Source: Terriglobia bacterium (GTDB lineage Bacteria; Acidobacteriota; Terriglobia; Terriglobales; Acidobacteriaceae). Taken from it: DNA of 64,000 nt. The notes below the pieces were generated by a model. It ran no database searches and was not told where the DNA came from. It was given only the letters and a program-made list of their open reading frames with translations. Positions 2,378-59,964 of this stretch are shown here, in pieces. The stretch spans positions 558,001 through 622,000 of the forward strand of contig JAIQGE010000001.1 in assembly GCA_020072815.1 (NCBI GenBank), written 5' to 3'. The position numbers were made by a program, and so were the translations under genes. Position 1 is the stretch's first letter. Every line of letters begins with the position of its first letter.

Positions 2378-3247
2378 GTGACCGTGCCCTCTGACAAAAA
2401 ACTAGGACTCATCGCCGGCAACGGCAGCTTTCCCCTGTTGCTGCTCGACGCTGCGCGGGCGCAAGGCGCAGAGGTTATCGTGGCGGCGATCAAGGAAGAA
2501 ACATCGCCCCTGATTGAGCAACGCGGCGCTGCGGCGGTGCACTGGATGTCCCTGGGTGAACTGGGCAAGCTGATTGACACTTTCAAGCGCGAAGGCGTGA
2601 CCACCGCCGTGATGGCCGGGCAGGTCAAGCACAAGCAGATTTTTTCCAGCATCCGGCCCGATTGGCGGCTGGCCAAGGTGTTGTTCTCCCTGGGCACGCG
2701 CAACACCGATTCGTTGATTGGCGCGGTGGCCAAGGTCCTGGAAGAGGAAGGCATCCATCTGATCAGTTCCACTTCTTATCTGGAGCCCTTGCTGGCCAAG
2801 CCGGGCGTGCTCACCAGGCGCGCGCCGAGTGAGGCCGAGCAGAAGAATGTCGCTTACGGACGCCAGGTAGCGCGGCATCTTGCGCAATTCGATATCGGCC
2901 AGACGGTGGTCATTGCGGAAGCGGCGTGCGTTGCGGTGGAAGCCATGGAAGGAACCGATGCGACCATTGCGCGCGCGGGCGAGATCATGAAGAGCCTGGG
3001 GAATGACGCTCACGCGGCCGATGCCGGTCCGGCGGCACTAAGCCGCGCTCTCACCGTGGTAAAGGTTGCCAAGCCGAACCAGGACATGCGCTTTGACGTG
3101 CCGGTGGTTGGCGTGAAGACCATTGCGACCATGCAGCAGGCCGGCGCGACCTGCCTGGCCGTGGACGCCGGAAAATGTTTGTTTCTCGACGGCGACAAAA
3201 TCACCACCACCGCCGACCAGGCGGGGATCGCGATTACTGCGGAATAG
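2378..3247 (+). CDS. lpxI: UDP-2,3-diacylglucosamine pyrophosphatase LpxI
   Basis: LpxI (DUF1009) hydrolyses UDP-2,3-diacylglucosamine to lipid X and UMP, replacing LpxH in many bacteria. The 289-residue protein shows the family layout: an N-terminal KLGLIAGNGSFPLLLLDAAR (residues 8-27), MAGQVKHKQIF in the middle, and a C-terminal catalytic domain with EAMEGTDATIARAG and KPNQDMRFDVPVVGVKTI. The start is a GTG at 2378; a second GTG at 2384 is equally possible. It follows lpxA after 92 bases, so a lipid A cluster is likely. Its last 14 bases overlap the convergent dehydratase gene. Confidence 0.93.
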   Translation: MTVPSDKKLGLIAGNGSFPLLLLDAARAQGAEVIVAAIKEETSPLIEQRGAAAVHWMSLGELGKLIDTFKREGVTTAVMAGQVKHKQIFSSIRPDWRLAKVLFSLGTRNTDSLIGAVAKVLEEEGIHLISSTSYLEPLLAKPGVLTRRAPSEAEQKNVAYGRQVARHLAQFDIGQTVVIAEAACVAVEAMEGTDATIARAGEIMKSLGNDAHAADAGPAALSRALTVVKVAKPNQDMRFDVPVVGVKTIATMQQAGATCLAVDAGKCLFLDGDKITTTADQAGIAITAE

Positions 3248-6200
3248 GCGCAGCGCCGGCTCGCCGGGCGAGCATGGAAGCGTACGTCCGGCTGAGCAGA
3301 TCACACACCACAGCTTCCTGCTCATGGTGCCGCGAACGGAACATGCGGTTCAAATGCATGTGCGCGAAGTTGGCGGCCAAATCTGGAATCGGTTGACCAA
3401 GTTCCTTGGCTTTTTGCAGATTTTCCAGTTGCTCGCGGATGGTTTGCAACCGGGCGGAGTAGCGCTCCAGCGCTGCGACGGCTTTCTCCGGAATGATTGC
3501 TGCCTTGTCGGCTTCGGCAGCCTGGCCCACCGTCTTTCCTGTCTCGAATTCCGCGATCAAGGCGGACAAAGTTTGCCGCTGGGTGCGAAAGGTTTGTGCC
3601 ATTTGCTGCTTGTAATCCTGATCAATCACAAATTGCTGTTCGCGGGCCCGCGCCATGTTTCGGGCCAAAGATTCCTTTTCCTCGAGAGCCAGGCCGAGCG
3701 TGGAGAGCAAGCGGTCCACGCCGCAACAGGCCAGTTGCCAGCGCAAGTCAGCGTCGCCAAGATCGGAGATGAGCTGGAGCAAGTCAAGGCACAGTTCGCT
3801 GTCCACTTCAAAGAGATGCTCGGCAATCCCGACGCCGGCTGGGCCGCCATAGCGCTCAGCCTCAGGCTCGTAAGCGTCAAATTGCAGCCGCCACAAAGTC
3901 CCCTGGCGCTGGTGGTCTTCCGCCAACTGTCGGAGCCGCGGCAGCACATGAAGGTTGAGCAGCGCGGGGTTGCCGTGAAAGCGGAGCCGCAAGTGCCAGT
4001 TAGGATCGCCATAGCGGAGGAAGAACCAGCGATCAGCCAGACCCGCGGACATCACTTCCGCCACCAGCGGCTGGACCAGCTCGAGCAGGAGCCGGTCCGC
4101 GTGCGATGGGCTGCAGTAGAGCTTGGCGAACAGCCAGTCTGATCCCATCTCCAATGGTGAACCAGGCGACGCCGCTCTGGCTGGGAGCGCGGCGGAAGCG
4201 GGCTGGCTGTCCTGTGCCGGCGACGCTTCCAGCGGCTTGCCGACAGCAGGCGCCTCGGTTGCCGGTGCAGGGACTGCCGGCCGCGTGCGCACCATCGGCA
4301 GAATAATTTCATGGACAAAGCTGCCTTCCGGCCCGCGGACCGACAATGCGTCCGGCGGTGGGAACATTTCCACCAGCACCGTCTCCGTCTGCTTTCTGAT
4401 GTGTTCAAGGAACGTTTCCACGGCCAGCGGGTTTTCAAAATCAATAAGGAGTTGGTTGTCGAACTCGGCGATATAGGCAAAGCGTGGGACCAGGTTTGCT
4501 TGGCGCCATTGCGGAACAGAAGTGCGACCCTGAGCGAGATCGAGCGCCGTTTCCTGGTTGATGCGCCAGCAAGCCAGCGAAAAAACGATGTTGCCCAGCG
4601 TGACGCGCGGCAAGAACGCGGCTTTTCCCGCGGCTCCCCAGTCCCAAAACAAGTCAGAGAGAGTTCCCTGACTCTGCAACAGGCAAAGAAATTTGTAGAG
4701 CTTCAAGCTGCGGGGACTGCCAAAGTTGTGCGCCGAGGTCAGCCGGGGCAACACCTCAGCGCCCAGGCGTCGCGAGCGAAGAACGATGCGGCCATCGCGC
4801 AGCGATACCGTCAAATCAGAGAGCGCGATCTGCCTCTCCGCCGGCACTCCGGGCGTAGCCAGCAGAGGAATTTCGTACTGCCGCAGTACGGGCCGGCAAA
4901 GCACGTTGCCCACGCGGCCCTCGGGGAGATGGACAATCTCAGCGAATACAACGCCGCTCGCATGGATGGCTTCTTCAGCGTTGATGTGCGCTTGCACAAA
5001 CTCCGCGAGTCGCTCGTCGGCATGGCGGAAACGGGCCAGGAGGTTGACGCCCGAAGGACCAAAGATGGTATGCGCGTAAAAGCTTGGCTGGCCACCGGGC
5101 GAGCGAAGCGAAGCGCCCATGACGGAGAAGGCGTCCGGCAGAGGGAGCGGATTGGCGGCTTTCAATTGGTCCAGTATCTCGGGGTCCAGATCGAGGACAA
5201 TTTCGTTCTTCGCGCGTAGCTCTTCCAGGCGGCGCTCCAGAACGAGCCGGCGCGGTTGGGCTTCGTCGGGCGGCGCTTCTTCGACCGGACGAAAATCAAT
5301 GCCGTCGAGCAGCGGCTCGGCGGTAGGGTTGTCTTCATTCTCAAAACCAATGCCGACTTCGTCATCGAGCGCCTCCAGGAGTGAAATCTCCTGGTCGCGA
5401 TAGCGATCTTGAAATTCCTCCTTGAATTGCTGGAAGGCTGAAGGGCTGGCAACGTCGAAGATGGAATGGAGCGTTTGAATCGCGGCCAGAACGTCGTTCA
5501 CCACCTGCCTGTCCAACGAAGCCGCTGCGGCCGGCTTGATGACATCCACCTGGACCAGCCGTCCCGGCCGGAATTCACCGCCCAGGCTGGAGACGGCGTT
5601 CACGATCCGGTCATAGGCGGCAGGGTCGGCGCCCAGGCCGCTGCGGTCCAGGGCACGCAGATCTTCGGCAAGCGCGCGCAGTTGGGCGGCGAGGCTTGGG
5701 GCTTGCGCCTGCTCGATCTGCTCAATCATGTGCAGAATGGCTTCGGCGCCGGTGACCGGAGGCACCAGGTCGGCGACCAGGAGTTGTGATTCAATGAGCC
5801 GGCCAACGAATTCGTCTGCTTCCTCGGGCTTGATCTCAGGGTCCCTTGCTGCCAGAGCGAAGCCCAGTTCGCCCGCCGTAGCGCCGGAAGCGGCCCGCGA
5901 CAACGTTGCATCCAGAGCGGGTGTGGGATCGGTGGCAACCAGTTGAAAGACGTGGTCGCCCTGCTGCCAGTCGCCCCGCACATGGTGGTACTTGCCGGCA
6001 GCCAGATGCAGCGTGGTGTTGCAACGAAACCGGAGATTGCCGCGCAACGCCGGATCAGCCATCAGGTGGTCAGCCAGACCGCAGAGGTATTCCATGTCCA
6101 GGCGAGTGCTGCGGCGGTATTGGCTGCTGGGGCCAAGCTCCAGGCGGGTTACGTCCGTGATCTCGCCGGTGCTGCAGCCGGCGAAGGCGCCGAAGGGAGT

Positions 6201-6518
6201 TGCCCGCGCCGTCATGCGAGCCAGGTAACGATACAAGGCCTGCTCTATCTTCCTGCCCTTTGCGCCTCCCGGATCATCCCGCCAGGTGGTAAGCGATTGC
6301 GAAAATTCCGGGGAGGCGATCCACAGGGCTTCGCGCACCTCCGGACGTTCGACCCAGCGGCGGAGATGGGTGCGGGCCGCTGCACGGTCATCGACCGCCG
6401 CGGACTGGCCGGGCGGAGAATCCGCCGCCAGCGAAGAGAGCTTCAGATATTCCTCAATAGGAAGCAGCGGCGTGCGCAGGACAAAAAATCCTGAGCTGGC
6501 GTATTCATCGCTTAGCAA
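3234..6518 (-). CDS. LanB-type lantibiotic dehydratase (full-length, glutamylation plus elimination domains)
   Basis: Class I LanB enzymes dehydrate Ser/Thr in a precursor peptide by tRNA-dependent glutamylation and elimination. The 1094-residue protein has both parts. The N-terminal domain (about 1-745) contains VREALWIASPEF (61-72) and RMTARATPFGAFAG (101-114). A Pro/Ala-rich linker (about 745-790) joins it to a SpaB_C/thiopeptide-type elimination domain (about 793-1094) with RYGDPNWHLRLRFHG (835-849) and AYEPEAERYGG (882-892). The start is a TTG at 6518 preceded by AGAGAAGAA; no better ATG is in frame. It lies 49 bases downstream of a Thr-rich heptad-repeat gene on the same strand, its likely substrate. 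No LanC cyclase, transporter or leader protease is adjacent. Confidence 0.88.
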   Translation of the reverse strand: MLSDEYASSGFFVLRTPLLPIEEYLKLSSLAADSPPGQSAAVDDRAAARTHLRRWVERPEVREALWIASPEFSQSLTTWRDDPGGAKGRKIEQALYRYLARMTARATPFGAFAGCSTGEITDVTRLELGPSSQYRRSTRLDMEYLCGLADHLMADPALRGNLRFRCNTTLHLAAGKYHHVRGDWQQGDHVFQLVATDPTPALDATLSRAASGATAGELGFALAARDPEIKPEEADEFVGRLIESQLLVADLVPPVTGAEAILHMIEQIEQAQAPSLAAQLRALAEDLRALDRSGLGADPAAYDRIVNAVSSLGGEFRPGRLVQVDVIKPAAAASLDRQVVNDVLAAIQTLHSIFDVASPSAFQQFKEEFQDRYRDQEISLLEALDDEVGIGFENEDNPTAEPLLDGIDFRPVEEAPPDEAQPRRLVLERRLEELRAKNEIVLDLDPEILDQLKAANPLPLPDAFSVMGASLRSPGGQPSFYAHTIFGPSGVNLLARFRHADERLAEFVQAHINAEEAIHASGVVFAEIVHLPEGRVGNVLCRPVLRQYEIPLLATPGVPAERQIALSDLTVSLRDGRIVLRSRRLGAEVLPRLTSAHNFGSPRSLKLYKFLCLLQSQGTLSDLFWDWGAAGKAAFLPRVTLGNIVFSLACWRINQETALDLAQGRTSVPQWRQANLVPRFAYIAEFDNQLLIDFENPLAVETFLEHIRKQTETVLVEMFPPPDALSVRGPEGSFVHEIILPMVRTRPAVPAPATEAPAVGKPLEASPAQDSQPASAALPARAASPGSPLEMGSDWLFAKLYCSPSHADRLLLELVQPLVAEVMSAGLADRWFFLRYGDPNWHLRLRFHGNPALLNLHVLPRLRQLAEDHQRQGTLWRLQFDAYEPEAERYGGPAGVGIAEHLFEVDSELCLDLLQLISDLGDADLRWQLACCGVDRLLSTLGLALEEKESLARNMARAREQQFVIDQDYKQQMAQTFRTQRQTLSALIAEFETGKTVGQAAEADKAAIIPEKAVAALERYSARLQTIREQLENLQKAKELGQPIPDLAANFAHMHLNRMFRSRHHEQEAVVCDLLSRTYASMLARRAGAAPIPQ

Positions 6519-6567
6519 CGAATTCTTCTCTTCCGCGAGGTCTGCTTGCTTGCCCCGGCCAACAAGC

Positions 6568-7158
6568 TTATTTGGGGACGGCGGCGCCTTTAGTCACCTG
6601 CTGATTGCCCTTGGTTATCTGCTGATTCCCCTTGGTGATCTGCTGATTCCCCTTGGTTATCTGCTGATTTCCTTTGGTAATCTGCTGGTTTCCTTTGGTC
6701 AGCTGCTGATTGCCTTTGGTCAGCTGCTGATTGGAACGAGCTTGGCCGGGCGGCGGCGGCGTGAGCTGCTTGTTGGCGTTGTTTCCCTTGGTAATCTGCT
6801 GGTTGCCTTTGGTGATCTGCTGATTGCCCTTGGTTATCTGCTGGTTGCCCTTAGTCAGTTGCTTGTTCTGAGTTTGGCAGCCTTCCGAGTATCGGCAGGT
6901 ACCGGTGTTTTGACCAACGGCTTTTTGCGGCTGGCCGCTTTTCGCGGCGACGCCGCTCTGGTTCTGCTGACGCAGGGTCTGCTGTTTGACCTGAAGCTTG
7001 CCGTTGTTGGCGGCAGGCGCTTGACCAGCGGTCTTGGCGGTGTTGGGCTTGCTCGTCGCCGCCGGGGGCTTGCTGCCCTTCAGCACCTGCGACTCCATCC
7101 GCATGCCGCCTCCGGCCAATCCCAGCATGGACAGCAACGCGACCCAATGTTTGCGCAT
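6568..7158 (-). CDS. Heptapeptide-repeat protein (NQQITKG)n, candidate RiPP precursor of the adjacent dehydratase
   Basis: No known family was recognised. The 196-residue product has a short basic and hydrophobic N-terminus (MRKHWVALLSMLGLAGGGM) that resembles a signal peptide. A Lys/Gln/Ala-rich region follows, then two cysteines (Cys88, Cys94), then eleven NQQ(I/L/V)TKG units: four at residues 98-125 and seven at 143-191. The spacer between the blocks contains TPPPPG. Every unit offers one Thr, flanked by an aliphatic residue and Lys-Gly. The start ATG has a strong AAGGAG. The LanB gene begins 49 bases downstream, which makes a substrate role plausible. The signal-like N-terminus argues for an exported repeat protein instead; both could hold. 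Confidence 0.72.
   Translation of the reverse strand: MRKHWVALLSMLGLAGGGMRMESQVLKGSKPPAATSKPNTAKTAGQAPAANNGKLQVKQQTLRQQNQSGVAAKSGQPQKAVGQNTGTCRYSEGCQTQNKQLTKGNQQITKGNQQITKGNQQITKGNNANKQLTPPPPGQARSNQQLTKGNQQLTKGNQQITKGNQQITKGNQQITKGNQQITKGNQQVTKGAAVPK
6586..6732 (-). repeat. 21-bp coding tandem repeat, block 2 (7 units)
   Basis: Seven 21-base units encode NQQLTKG twice, NQQITKG four times and NQQVTKG once. Units differ at third-codon positions while the peptide stays constant, which suggests selection on the protein. Confidence 0.9.
6784..6867 (-). repeat. 21-bp coding tandem repeat, block 1 (4 units)
   Basis: Four 21-base units encode NKQLTKG once and NQQITKG three times. They are separated from block 2 by 51 bases encoding an Asn-, Pro- and Gln-rich spacer. 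Confidence 0.9.
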
Positions 7159-12459: not shown

Positions 12460-13743
12460 CTACGCGTATTTGATCCACTTCAAGATTTCCGGCAGCGTGG
12501 GCTTCTTGCCGTACATGAGGATGCCGACGCGGTAGATGCGTCCGCAGAGCCAGGCGCATCCGAATACCGCGGCCACCAGCAGCGCAATGGACAGGGCAAT
12601 CTCCCACGTATGCGGCGGCTGCAGAGCAAGCCGCGTCAGCATGATCAGGGGAGAAGTAAAGGGAAACAGCGACGCCCAAAACGCCAGCGGGCTGGACGGG
12701 TACTGGATGATGTTGACCATGATGATGACGGCAAGGATCAACGGCATCATCACCACAATCTGCAGTTGCTGGGCTTCCTGTTCGGAATTCACCATGGCGC
12801 CAATGGCCGCGCACAAGGTGCTATAGAGGGCAAAGCCAAGAAGGAAATACACGGCAAAATAAACGAGCAGCTTGGTACTGAGCACACCGCTGAACGTGCC
12901 AGCTGAACTGGCAACCAGCAGCGGCAACGCGCCCGCTACCACGGACCAAATGCCGACTTGGGTAAGCCCCACGGCGCTGACGCCCAGGATCTTGCCGGTC
13001 ATCATCTGCTGCGACGTGGCGGTGGAAAGCATGACTTCCATCACGCGGGACGTTTTTTCTTCCAAGATAGCGCGCATCACGTTGACGCCATACAGCAGGA
13101 TGGTCATATACAGCACCATCACCAGGGCCAGCACGGTCAGGAACAGCTTCTGCGGATCGGGTTTGTCTTTGCCTTCAGGACTAATGGCCGCAAGGTCCAC
13201 CGGCTTCAGGGCATTCTGGATGTCAGCGTCCGTGAGGCCTTTGCCCTTGAGCATTTGCCGGCGCACGCCGACGCTGATGGCCCGCTCCAGGATGGAAGTA
13301 TCAATGAAGCTGGAAACGTTCAGCGTAATGTAGTCAAACTTCCGGGAAGCCAGCGCTTCATCGCTGGCCCAGATAACGCCATCCAGTTGCTTGGCCTTCA
13401 CTTTCTCTGTGAAGGCGCGGCGGGACGCGTCGGAGACGTCCGTCTCTACCGTAACGTCGTAGTGCGTGGTGGTCAACGGACCGCGCTGGCCACCTGGCAT
13501 ATCCGCCTCTTTTTTCGGCTTGTTGAGGTCCAGGAGTTCCTCGCGCAGGATCGCGCCGGTCTGCGGGTCGGCGGTTACCAGAACAATCTTCTTGGTTCCG
13601 CCCGAGGACCGGGTGGCGATCAGAGACGGCACAACCGAAACGCCAATCATCAGCGCGGGGATCAGGATGGTCATGATCAGGAACGACTTGGCGCGGACCC
13701 GCTCCAGGTATTCGCGCTTGGCGATAATCCAAACATTACGCAT
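12460..13743 (-). CDS. ABC-2 type transporter permease (NatB-like)
   Basis: The 427-residue integral membrane protein has one N-terminal membrane helix (KSFLIMTILIPALMIGVSVV, about 19-38) and a large extracytoplasmic domain (about 40-200). A C-terminal bundle of about five helices follows, including LTVLALVMVLYMTILLYGVN, VGIWSVVAGALPLLVA and IVVMMPLILAVIIMVNII. This is the layout of NatB sodium exporters and related ABC-2 permeases. EEKTSRVMEVMLSTATSQQMMTGKILGV is the conserved cytosolic segment that contacts the ATPase. Its start overlaps the end of the ATPase gene by 8 bases. The substrate could be Na+ or a small toxic compound; the sequence does not decide. Confidence 0.9.
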   Translation of the reverse strand: MRNVWIIAKREYLERVRAKSFLIMTILIPALMIGVSVVPSLIATRSSGGTKKIVLVTADPQTGAILREELLDLNKPKKEADMPGGQRGPLTTTHYDVTVETDVSDASRRAFTEKVKAKQLDGVIWASDEALASRKFDYITLNVSSFIDTSILERAISVGVRRQMLKGKGLTDADIQNALKPVDLAAISPEGKDKPDPQKLFLTVLALVMVLYMTILLYGVNVMRAILEEKTSRVMEVMLSTATSQQMMTGKILGVSAVGLTQVGIWSVVAGALPLLVASSAGTFSGVLSTKLLVYFAVYFLLGFALYSTLCAAIGAMVNSEQEAQQLQIVVMMPLILAVIIMVNIIQYPSSPLAFWASLFPFTSPLIMLTRLALQPPHTWEIALSIALLVAAVFGCAWLCGRIYRVGILMYGKKPTLPEILKWIKYA

Positions 13744-14638
13744 CGGTCTTCCCCACCACTTCTTTGAAGATTTCTTCCATGGACGGTTCCATCAGCTCAA
13801 AGCGGTTGACGCGCACGCGCTCCAAGGCCAGCCGCAACAGGTCCTGGGGATCAGCCCCAGGCGCCAGCTTCACTTCCACGTAGTTACCGTAGTCGTCGCA
13901 AGAGGCGACGAGCGCTTTGTTTTGCAGAAAGCCCCCGCCGCCTTCGTACTGGATCTGGACGTTGCGCTTGCCGTAGCGCGACTTCACTTCCTTCAGCTCC
14001 CCTTGCAGAACCGGCCGGCCTTTATCGATGAGGCAAATGCTGTCACAGAGCCGTTCCACCTGGTCCATGCGGTGGGTGGAAAACAGAATGGTCTTGCCGC
14101 TCTTCTTCAGGTCCATCAGCACATCTTTGAGCAAGCCGGCATTGACTGGATCGAGCCCGTAAAACGGCTCGTCCATGATGACGAAGTCCGGTTCGTGCAA
14201 CAGGGCGGCGATGAACTGGATCTTCTGCTGCATTCCCTTGGAAAGCTCTTCCACCTTGCTTTGCAGTTTCTCCGCAATCTCCAGCCGCTCGCACCATGCG
14301 ATGGCCTTCTTCCGGGCGACGGCAGCGTTCATGCCGTGCAGTTCGCCCAGAAACACCAACTGGTCCACGATCTTCATCTTCTTATAGAGCCCGCGCTCTT
14401 CGGGAAGATAGCCGATGTTGTGCAGGCTGGTGCGCTCAAACGGCTTGCCGAAAACGCTTATGCTGCCGCTGTCCGGCGCGGTGATGCCGATCATCATGCG
14501 GATGGTGCTGGTCTTACCCGCGCCGTTGGGGCCCAGCAGCCCAAATACGGCGCCTTCGCCAATACTGAACGAAAGGTTGTCCACGGCCACAAACTGGTCG
14601 TAGGTCTTGCGGACCTGGCTGAGTTCAATGGTGTTCAT
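13736..14638 (-). CDS. ABC transporter ATP-binding protein (NatA-like)
   Basis: The 300-residue ATPase has Walker A GPNGAGKT (36-43), a Q-loop-equivalent region near GYLPEERGLY, signature LSKGMQQK (132-139), Walker B VIMDEP (153-158) and switch His in STHRMDQVE. The C-terminal extension (about 215-300) is the NatA/DUF4162 type. It energises the permease encoded 8 bases into its own 3' end. LPEERGLY is typical of NatA-like exporters. It starts 48 bases after the PilZ gene on the same strand. Confidence 0.93.
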   Translation of the reverse strand: MNTIELSQVRKTYDQFVAVDNLSFSIGEGAVFGLLGPNGAGKTSTIRMMIGITAPDSGSISVFGKPFERTSLHNIGYLPEERGLYKKMKIVDQLVFLGELHGMNAAVARKKAIAWCERLEIAEKLQSKVEELSKGMQQKIQFIAALLHEPDFVIMDEPFYGLDPVNAGLLKDVLMDLKKSGKTILFSTHRMDQVERLCDSICLIDKGRPVLQGELKEVKSRYGKRNVQIQYEGGGGFLQNKALVASCDDYGNYVEVKLAPGADPQDLLRLALERVRVNRFELMEPSMEEIFKEVVGKTDA

Positions 14639-57847: not shown

Positions 57848-59935
57848 TTACGCCAAGGCTATGAGGCGCTGCTGGCGCAGTATCTCAATCCCCGCTAAAC
57901 ATGCCTTCTCCGGGGGAACACCCGGGATTTCGATGTTACGTAGCAGGAATTCTCCCGTAATCTCCTGTACCGTCAAGCCTTCTTCGCAAAGGCCCAGCAA
58001 TTCGGCGGAGAGCGGAGTGAGCTGACGAACTTCAGCCGGCCCCGCCGGAGTCCTGCGAATGGCGAGCTTCACTGGTTTCTCGGCAATGTCATGCAACGGG
58101 CCCCTCTGCCGGAGCCGCCGGACAATCTCCTGATAGTCAGCCGGGATCGTGATGACATTGACTCCCCGACGCAGCTGCAGACGGCTGTCGGGAGAAAGCA
58201 GGCCTTCCATATCGTCGGAACTGCTATCGGAGACTTGCCCAGGATTGTCGCCAACGGCGTCCGATTCATGATCGCGGCCAAGCAATGCTGTTTCGTATTC
58301 CACCAGCGCGGTCATGGCCAAAGGCGCCTTGCTGGCAGCAGGGATGTAATGCAGCCGCACAAACCTGAAAAAGTCCGCCGGAAAGCTTGTTTGCGCGTAA
58401 TAGGCGGTGCGATCACCGTTGGAAAAGTGCAGTCCGTTCCTGGTCCGCCATTCCTGCCATTGCTGAAACACGTGCACCACGTTGCCGCTGTCCTGATGCA
58501 GCCCCAGGAGAAGCTTTCGAAACGCCCTCATGCCGCACAGGAGAAAGTCGCGCAACTCCTTGAGAAATTCGCGCTCGAGGTATGGCATGGGAACGGCGTA
58601 AAAGCTGGAAAATATTTCCGGATGCGCGGTAATCATCGCATGGTCCTGCGGCTCCTGCTGCCATCCGCGATAAGACATGTCGGCAACATCGTCATTCAGG
58701 ACCAGCGAATCCTTGTACTGCGTCTGGATGGGCGTACCGGCAAGCGGGGCCAGGATGCTGAGTTGAGGGTCCGCGTGGTCATAGCGCAGTGAATCCACAA
58801 AGAACGCTGCTGTATCGCGCAGGTCGTCCATGGTTTCGTCGGGGAAGCCGGCCATCAATGAGACTGCGGTATTGATCTTGAACTTGTCGCAGGAACGCAC
58901 GCGCTCCGTCGAATCGTTCAATTCCAGGCCCTTGTCAATGATCTTCTGCATTCGCCGCGAGCCGGTCTCAATGCCAAAGAAGATGCCGCGGCAGCCGGCT
59001 TTCGCCATGAGCGCGATCAGTTCTTCGTCAACACAATCCGTGCGCGCGCTGGAGCCCCAGGTGAACTCTTCCCCGCTCTGCAGCAGGGCTTCACAAAATT
59101 CCACGACGCGTTTGCGGTCCACCGTAAACATGTCGTGCACCAGCTCAAAAGAGCTGATGCCGTACGTCTGCTTGACCCGGCGCATGTCGGCTAGCATTTG
59201 CGCCGGACTCTTCAGCCGGAAACGGCGGCGAAAAAAATCGTTGGTCGAACAGAAGGTGCAGGAAAAAGGACAGCCGCGTCCCAGCTCCAGCGGAAAGTGA
59301 CGGCAGAAGCGAACGTCAGGAAAGAGATGAAAAGCGGGAAATGGCAGGGCGTCCAGGTCCGCGACCAGGGGCGCTTCCGGGTTGCGGACGATTCCTCCAT
59401 CACCATTCCCGCGAAAGGTGATGCCTGGGATTTCCGCGAGAGAACGGCCCGCGGTGAGCGCATCCACAAGCTCAGGAAGGGTCTGCTCCGCTTCTCCGCG
59501 CACTACCAGGTCAATCCATGGAAAAGCGCGCAGGGTGGAGATATCCACCACGGAAGCCTGGGGACCGCCTAGTACGACCGCTGACTCGGGATGCGCTCGC
59601 TTGACCTCCGCAGCGATGCGAAGCGTCAGAGGGTAGCTGCTGCAAACCGTACTGAAGCCAAAAAAATCAACGCCGGCAAAGTCGCGGCCGGCAAAGTACG
59701 CTCCGGCAAAGCTGCAAAAACTAGCTTTATCTCGATTCGAATCCTGCAGCCAGCTGTAATAGACGCGATTGAGATCCACAACTTGCGGTTGCAAGCCTTT
59801 GGCTTCCAGCACGGCGGCCAGGCTCAGTATGCCGACGGGAGCAAGCTCGCCCATGATGCGAGCTGCTTCTGTTTCGCCCACGGCACGGCTATCGAACTGG
59901 TTGGCCGTGGGCGCACTGATGAGACAAACTTTCAT
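57848..59935 (-). CDS. Cobalamin-binding-type radical SAM enzyme with PqqD-like C-terminus
   Basis: The 695-residue protein has an N-terminal B12-binding-type domain (about 1-170, PVGILSLAAVLEAKGLQPQVVDLN; VVLGGPQASV) without the DxHxxG cobalamin ligand. The radical SAM domain (about 205-430) has the cluster motif CPFSCTFC (Cys222, 226, 229). The C-terminal part (about 620-695, LTPLSAELLGLCEEGLTVQEITGEF and GIEILRQQRLI) resembles the PqqD/RiPP recognition fold. Upstream on the same strand are two paralogous small peptides ending in NMGC, its likely substrates. The reaction (methylation, epimerisation or crosslinking) cannot be predicted. The ATG at 59935 is used; a GTG at 59944 adds three residues. 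Confidence 0.85.
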   Translation of the reverse strand: MKVCLISAPTANQFDSRAVGETEAARIMGELAPVGILSLAAVLEAKGLQPQVVDLNRVYYSWLQDSNRDKASFCSFAGAYFAGRDFAGVDFFGFSTVCSSYPLTLRIAAEVKRAHPESAVVLGGPQASVVDISTLRAFPWIDLVVRGEAEQTLPELVDALTAGRSLAEIPGITFRGNGDGGIVRNPEAPLVADLDALPFPAFHLFPDVRFCRHFPLELGRGCPFSCTFCSTNDFFRRRFRLKSPAQMLADMRRVKQTYGISSFELVHDMFTVDRKRVVEFCEALLQSGEEFTWGSSARTDCVDEELIALMAKAGCRGIFFGIETGSRRMQKIIDKGLELNDSTERVRSCDKFKINTAVSLMAGFPDETMDDLRDTAAFFVDSLRYDHADPQLSILAPLAGTPIQTQYKDSLVLNDDVADMSYRGWQQEPQDHAMITAHPEIFSSFYAVPMPYLEREFLKELRDFLLCGMRAFRKLLLGLHQDSGNVVHVFQQWQEWRTRNGLHFSNGDRTAYYAQTSFPADFFRFVRLHYIPAASKAPLAMTALVEYETALLGRDHESDAVGDNPGQVSDSSSDDMEGLLSPDSRLQLRRGVNVITIPADYQEIVRRLRQRGPLHDIAEKPVKLAIRRTPAGPAEVRQLTPLSAELLGLCEEGLTVQEITGEFLLRNIEIPGVPPEKACLAGIEILRQQRLIALA

Positions 59936-59964
59936 GGTTGTCACTTAGTTTGAACGCGGCTGAA

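Follow-up and report, generated by a model that had tools for sequence, protein, structure and literature searches.

Dehydratases of the LanB kind are known from goadsporin and thiomuracin biosynthesis, where they work without a lanthionine cyclase, on short cores and in concert with azole-forming enzymes. These LanB-like enzymes from outside the lanthipeptides, GodF/GodG and TbtB/TbtC, are split in two, in contrast to the full-length LanB described here (PMC8546558; this and the other papers cited by PMC number were available to us in part). The available text of the same paper also states that NisB dehydrates without its partners. Class I lanthipeptide leaders in Bacteroidetes follow the pattern LxLxKx5L, many of them with a GG end (PMC7268733). 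As far as the available part of that survey tells, it starts from LanC and drops ORFs longer than 120 aa, which would make it blind to systems of the type found in our window. A repeated motif that doubles as a repeated modification site has been described for the precursor TvgA, which repeats TVGG and is modified within these repeats, although the enzyme there is a radical-SAM protein that forms cyclopropylglycine from Val (PMC9062424, in the part available). A literature search returned no precedent for a Sec signal combined with an internal leader box, and nothing on lanthipeptides with a Sec signal peptide or on a LanB without LanC.

The window, the whole stretch of 64,000 nucleotides that was analysed (G000:C1:558001-622000), comes from an acidobacterial genome, G000, of 5.29 Mb in 32 contigs that is listed as 100% complete. 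In agreement with the original prediction, a 196-residue repeat protein, here called P0001, is encoded 49 bases upstream of a LanB that has both the glutamylation and the elimination domain, and both genes lie on the minus strand. The features are given below in window positions; positions within the proposed leader box are numbered along 12 residues.

3234..6518, minus strand: full-length LanB, 1094 aa, TTG start, glutamylation domain at residues 57-702 and elimination domain at residues 795-1079
6568..7158, minus strand: P0001, exported repeat protein and proposed LanB substrate, 196 aa, ATG start
7090..7158, minus strand: predicted Sec-type signal, P0001 residues 1-23, MRKHW followed by a hydrophobic stretch; MRK and such a stretch are present in 6/6 aligned family members
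7072..7089, minus strand: QVLKGS, P0001 residues 24-29, kept in the paralogs that are not beside LanB and reading QVIKGS in G153
6961..6999, minus strand: proposed LanB leader box, P0001 residues 54-66, KLQVKQQTLRQQN
6877..6906, minus strand: TGTCRYSEGC, P0001 residues 85-94, two [ST]xxC motifs, possible thioether region
6784..6867, minus strand: first block, P0001 residues 98-125, 4 x[ILV]TKG units
6742..6768, minus strand: QLTPPPPGQ hinge, P0001 residues 131-139, common to all three homologues
6586..6732, minus strand: second block, P0001 residues 143-191, 7 x[ILV]TKG units

Related pairs were found in two further genomes, G134 and G153. The three loci resemble class I lanthipeptides with LxLxKx5L leaders (available part of PMC7268733), and the classical precursor of the related genome G048, in their full-length LanB, a candidate box of similar pattern (strong in G134, weak in G000 and G153), Ser/Thr close to Cys and, in two of three, a GG after the box. 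They differ in that LanC was not found in two of the three genomes, that GG stands closer to the box, and that the putative precursor is 160-196 aa long, with an export signal, a Thr-repeat array and a box that is internal rather than N-terminal.

Eleven NQQ(I/L/V)TKG repeats in two blocks had been predicted. Eleven x[ILV]TKG units are present, with four before and seven after a KQLTPPPPG hinge that splits the array, but one of them reads NKQLTKG, so that ten are exact copies of NQQ[ILV]TKG. The two Cys, at residues 88 and 94, do precede the array, which starts at residue 98. In 100,000 shuffles of P0001 the [ILV]TKG count reached at most 3, compared to the 11 observed. Tandem Repeats Finder (TRF) reported two 21-bp arrays in the gene, and an ORF of 347 aa, longer than P0001, runs antisense through it. 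Pairwise codon differences among the ten exact units comprised 102 synonymous and 23 nonsynonymous changes, with all 23 of the latter at the I/L/V position. Because these differences are mostly synonymous, we favour the minus strand over the antisense ORF; the same frame is common to both P0001 homologues, which align with 63% and 59% identity.

AlphaFold2 predicted P0001 to be disordered (mean pLDDT 41.4, pTM 0.12), from an alignment of only three sequences, and such disorder could fit a role as LanB substrate. The model is also relevant to an improbable alternative, in which P0001 is a secreted structural or ice-binding beta-roll protein and the adjacent LanB acts on something else. Regular Thr heptads would suit a beta roll, and the Pfam profile of the grass antifreeze beta roll gives a weak hit (E 0.003), whereas the predicted lack of a fold argues weakly against it, given the three sequences. 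Also against this alternative are the spacing of the units, which varies from 7 to 9 between homologues, and the conservation of the gene pair among neighbours that otherwise differ. A grass-type beta-roll ice-binding protein as such was rejected (18.1 bits against a cut-off of 30, and no fold predicted).

The window LanB is the sole LanB match in G000 (protein search; PF04738). It aligned to profile positions 1-648 of 649 in PF04738 (459.7 bits) and 1-255 of 255 in PF14028 (224.8 bits). Residues R101, R105, T107, D141, R496, R846 and R889 of the window LanB, mapped to NisB by hand with a PDB chain offset of 3, were invariant across five aligned LanBs. We take their NisB counterparts to be R83, R87, T89, D121, R464, R786 and R826, sites that, together with H961 and R966, are needed for glutamylation and elimination; H1053 and R1058 of the window LanB were assigned to H961 and R966 by motif spacing only. 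We consider it very improbable that full lanthipeptide chemistry is missing from the pair, whether lost or never acquired, for example with a LanB that glutamylates without eliminating or with the locus as a decaying remnant. The invariance of the residues mapped to NisB catalytic sites argues against this, as do the full length of LanB in all three genomes (G000, G134 and G153) and the excess of synonymous over other changes among the repeat units. What would fit such a loss is that G000 has a weaker box and GG than G134 and that no LanC was found in G000 or G153.

LanC had been predicted to be missing next to the pair, and a search with PF05147 extended this to the whole G000 genome, where there was no match anywhere. 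There was also no PF05147 match in G153, whose genome is 92% complete, while in G134 LanC-like genes do occur, though not on the contig that carries the repeat/LanB pair. In two genomes with a full-length relative of the window LanB, G106 and G048, LanB adjoins LanC. Since LanC is a defining feature and gave no match in G000, we do not file the system as a lanthipeptide. Among the nearest neighbours of P0001 and LanB scanned with Pfam (LpxI, an LpxA-like acyltransferase, a FabA-like dehydratase, a matchless ORF, an FG-GAP protein and RuvX), there was no LanT exporter and no LanP/C39 protease; the window holds an ABC-2 pair at 12463-14638, more than 5 kb away. The prediction that no transporter is adjacent thus holds for the nearest neighbours in the window but not for G153, where a DrrA/B-like ABC pair (ATPase and permease) lies just upstream of the repeat/LanB pair. 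The surroundings consist of lipid A genes and RuvX in G000, an AMP-binding/carrier/thioesterase protein (a large upstream ORF) and an alpha-amylase-type protein in G134, and a TPR protein with the ABC pair in G153.

LanB matches were present in 8 of 200 family genomes, with full-length relatives in G000, G134, G153, G106 and G048. P0001 had matches at E<=1 in five of the nine genomes of the genus, and a TKG-repeat protein occurred only in G000, G134 and G153; G106 has a LanB and no match to P0001. In all three genomes that have one, the TKG-repeat protein sits directly upstream of LanB. Widespread occurrence of the repeat protein away from LanB, which would have spoken against a functional link, was not what we found, as all three TKG proteins adjoin LanB and the paralogs located elsewhere lack TKG. 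No further gene was common to the G000, G134 and G153 stretches (20, 19 and 8.2 kb; blastp at 1e-4, ORFs of >=80 aa); in this comparison the antisense ORF masked the G000 repeat ORF, whose homology comes from the alignment, and genes masked likewise would escape. The pairing in 3/3 genomes, the lack of another shared gene in the stretches compared and a LanB-type leader box, clear in G134 alone, support the view that LanB and the repeat protein belong together, and with it part of the earlier interpretation.

From a contig scan that returned 135 LanB relatives we kept 80 loci, 60 of which have a LanC-like ORF, as judged by a model built from two LanCs and with some loci incomplete. In a tree of 41 LanB sequences (one from the window, the others from 40 of these loci; rooted for drawing only), the repeat-linked LanBs of G000, G134 and G153 formed one clade with support of 100/100, and their sister, also at 100/100, was the LanC-linked LanB of G106 (L032). 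The simplest reading of this topology is that LanC was lost from the locus of the repeat-linked LanBs. A repeat filter applied to the 80 loci flagged one of TKG type (L031) and passed over L030, which is known otherwise and falls below the threshold, so others may escape too. Of 398 family genomes searched with a TKG profile, 19 had a match at E 0.05, four of these within the genus. When 9 of the 15 non-genus genomes were examined at one locus each, these proved to be microsatellite DNA, unrelated proteins and a heptad ORF in G155, and a wider TKG family was rejected. Only three genomes thus appear to carry the TKG-repeat/LanB pair, which we count against our main reading.

A profile of 15 precursors, run to look for a different LanB substrate, detected no classical small precursor in G000 or G153. 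Because this profile also misses P0001, its sensitivity is limited and a diverged substrate could escape. The same profile detected the following precursor (E 4.7e-18; its source locus is among the 15 profile rows):

L027 2699-2875: classical precursor in G048, of the same bacterial family

As far as the profile reaches, no rival conserved LanB substrate was found elsewhere in G000; its presence would have weakened the original prediction. In G106 the profile gave many places. We fetched ten, two of which have no box; the other eight are precursors on eight contigs other than the LanBC contig, with Q at box position 6, e.g. KLKLNQETLRNL. None was seen near the sister LanBC itself. Used as a query against G000 and G153, a G106 precursor gave only matches at E 0.7 to 1.7, none of which extended to the box. 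G106 (L186-L192 and L194; LanBC in L025/L032) is of interest in its own right, with at least eight scattered class I precursors of one box type and very different cores, an arrangement that resembles, within class I, the way prochlorosin precursors are dispersed. It carries further LanB- and LanC-like matches, and a 71-aa LanB C-terminal fragment downstream of LanBC (L025 4200-4415) is likely a duplicate remnant.

Small precursors beside LanB relatives carry the box K-L-x-L-x-[KR]-E-T-[LIV]-x-x-L, mostly followed by GG, and the eight G106 precursors have KLxLxQETLRNL. New here is a leader-box-like block in the LanB-linked repeat proteins, which reads KLNLNQQTLRQQN in G134 and KLQVKQ[QG]TLRQQN in G000 and G153. 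Candidate boxes were scored with a matrix from 34 training boxes, chosen by eye from 53 rows with doubtful ORFs and many near-duplicates left out, and the best window fell on the same aligned block in all three proteins. The G134 box scored 17.3 bits, a value reached by 1 of 20,000 shuffles, compared to 12.8-34.4 bits for the training boxes when each was left out in turn. The signal was weak for P0001 (6.2 bits, 288 of 20,000 shuffles, ranking seventh of 339 window ORFs) and was 3.6 bits in G153 (1,079 of 20,000). Three paralogs encoded away from LanB had their best windows elsewhere, with scores of -2.8, 5.9 and 1.75; the second of these, from G198, comes near the P0001 score. A window of 13.8 bits also occurs in the G134 LanB, so long proteins can reach such scores by chance.

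A second matrix, from the eight G106 boxes, gave 19.2 bits for G134 (4 of 100,000 shuffles), 9.3 bits for P0001 (1,900 of 100,000; rank 2 among 679 window ORFs) and 9.3 bits for G153 (1,822 of 100,000), compared to 0.8, -1.1 and 1.1 for the paralogs. Q at box position 6 was found in 3/3 repeat proteins and 8/8 G106 boxes and in 0/34 other boxes (28 K, 6 R), which had been collected with a pattern that permitted K, R or Q there. We conclude that the box is well supported in G134, and that in G000 and G153 the assignment rests on homology.

All four Cys of the three LanB-linked proteins lie in [ST]xxC, and the first Cys follows the 12-residue box at +23 in G000, +20 in G153 and +19 in G134, within the range of 17 to 26 in eight classical precursors. 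Behind the box, G153 has a GG at +7 and G134 at +6, whereas classical precursors have it at +10 to +12 and G000 lacks it. The [ST]xxC motifs, the GG in two of three proteins and the distance from box to first Cys would fit an ordinary class I lanthipeptide, in which only the Cys stretch near residues 80-94 is modified, forming one ring or two, while the TKG array serves as an unmodified basic spacer or carrier. We consider this unlikely, since LanC is unmatched in G000 and G153 and since, of the 28 [ILV]xK sites that follow the box in the LanB-linked trio, 26 have Thr at x (the other two are terminal VPK), while the linkers between units vary in sequence and length.

Paralogs in G000, G153 and G198 that are not beside LanB served as a natural control:

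L012 1195-1716; L022 1273-1653; L023 1501-2067: Lys/Ala-rich QVLKGS paralogs, predicted to be exported

Judged by reading, all three adjoin a kinase-like gene and two have cytochrome oxidase genes nearby; G198 has no PF04738 match in its genome (89% complete). MRK with a hydrophobic stretch, QVxKGS and a final PK occur in all six aligned family members, LanB-linked proteins and paralogs alike, which agrees with the predicted signal-peptide-like N-terminus; the Sec type and cleavage site of P0001 are putative assignments. After residue 29, the paralogs have 0, 0 and 0 TKG and the LanB-linked proteins 11, 10 and 4; Cys number 0, 0 and 0 versus 2, 1 and 1, [ILVM]T 2, 0 and 1 versus 12, 13 and 6, and acidic residues 17, 10 and 19 versus 1, 3 and 1. 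Thr units, Cys and basic character thus track LanB, while the export signal does not. A 376-aa ORF from another genus (L120 487-1617, G074:C53) has a similar start, ...SLPASAQVLKGSKP..., and is otherwise different; from this ORF, the AQVLKGS motif behind an export signal may be more widespread.

Collectively, the pair most likely works like class I lanthipeptide dehydration. We think it fairly probable that the two genes encode an enzyme and its substrate and stem from a class I lanthipeptide system, with docking at the box, Thr dehydration in the array and exit by Sec. The substrate would be a chimera of an exported QVLKGS protein (signal peptide and final PK), a KLxLxQxTLRQQN box, an [ST]xxC stretch and an x[ILV]TKG array. 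LanB would bind the box in the cytoplasm, glutamylate the Thr of the array with Glu-tRNA and then eliminate glutamate, placing a dehydrobutyrine (Dhb) beside Lys about every 7 to 9 residues. In the absence of LanC, rings could close only spontaneously, at [ST]xxC, and the unfolded, strongly basic product would leave through Sec. Binding, dehydration, thioethers, export route and function are what we infer from the sequences. Against this reading stand the weak boxes of P0001 and G153, the G198 score close to that of P0001, the 13.8-bit window in the G134 LanB, the failure of the precursor profile to detect P0001, the closer or missing GG, the LanC-like genes elsewhere in G134 and the lack of a precedent for a Sec signal with an internal box among the papers searched. 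A 2006 work by Kuipers is said, going by its title, to concern Sec-mediated export of dehydrated peptides in Lactococcus.

These comparisons suggest that in some soil Acidobacteria a LanB without its usual cyclase modifies a secreted Thr-repeat protein. If so, LanB chemistry would extend beyond short peptides that are separate from general secretion, and a box behind a Sec signal would let one long chain carry many dehydrated residues outside the cell. Such a chain would also be a naturally occurring template for polymers in which every repeat carries a reactive group. Possible, though doubtful, is the further step that LanB was recruited from small lanthipeptides to decorate a full-length secreted protein, and that the product, a basic, unfolded polymer whose units each place an electrophilic Dhb next to Lys, could cross-link outside the cell through Lys or Cys, as a covalent matrix or adhesive rather than an antibiotic. 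Cross-linking of the repeat product by Dhb and Lys is speculation by analogy. The lysinoalanine of the spirochaete flagellar hook offers a chemical model, a cross-link that joins Lys to a dehydroamino acid outside the cytoplasm, with the difference that it forms from Cys or Ser of FlgE (PMC10691653, in the part available).

Two observations unrelated to the pair were made along the way. The heptad ORF of G155, a genome without a LanB or LanC match, encodes 168 aa with about 17 [NDM]-type LTRG heptads (SANLTRG/SADLTRG; L139 2369-2875 on G155:C217, the same as L113 1306-1812). It is divergent from a gene for an HExxH M50/HlyD protein (NF041824, 114 bits, below the cut-off of 300), and is possibly another repeat RiPP precursor, although its 21-bp array is open in several frames. 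In the window itself, about 50 kb from the repeat/LanB pair, 57848-59944 on the minus strand encodes a 698-aa B12-binding radical SAM protein, for which the best NCBIfam match is the RiPP maturase ApyD at 356.6 bits (cut-off 750).
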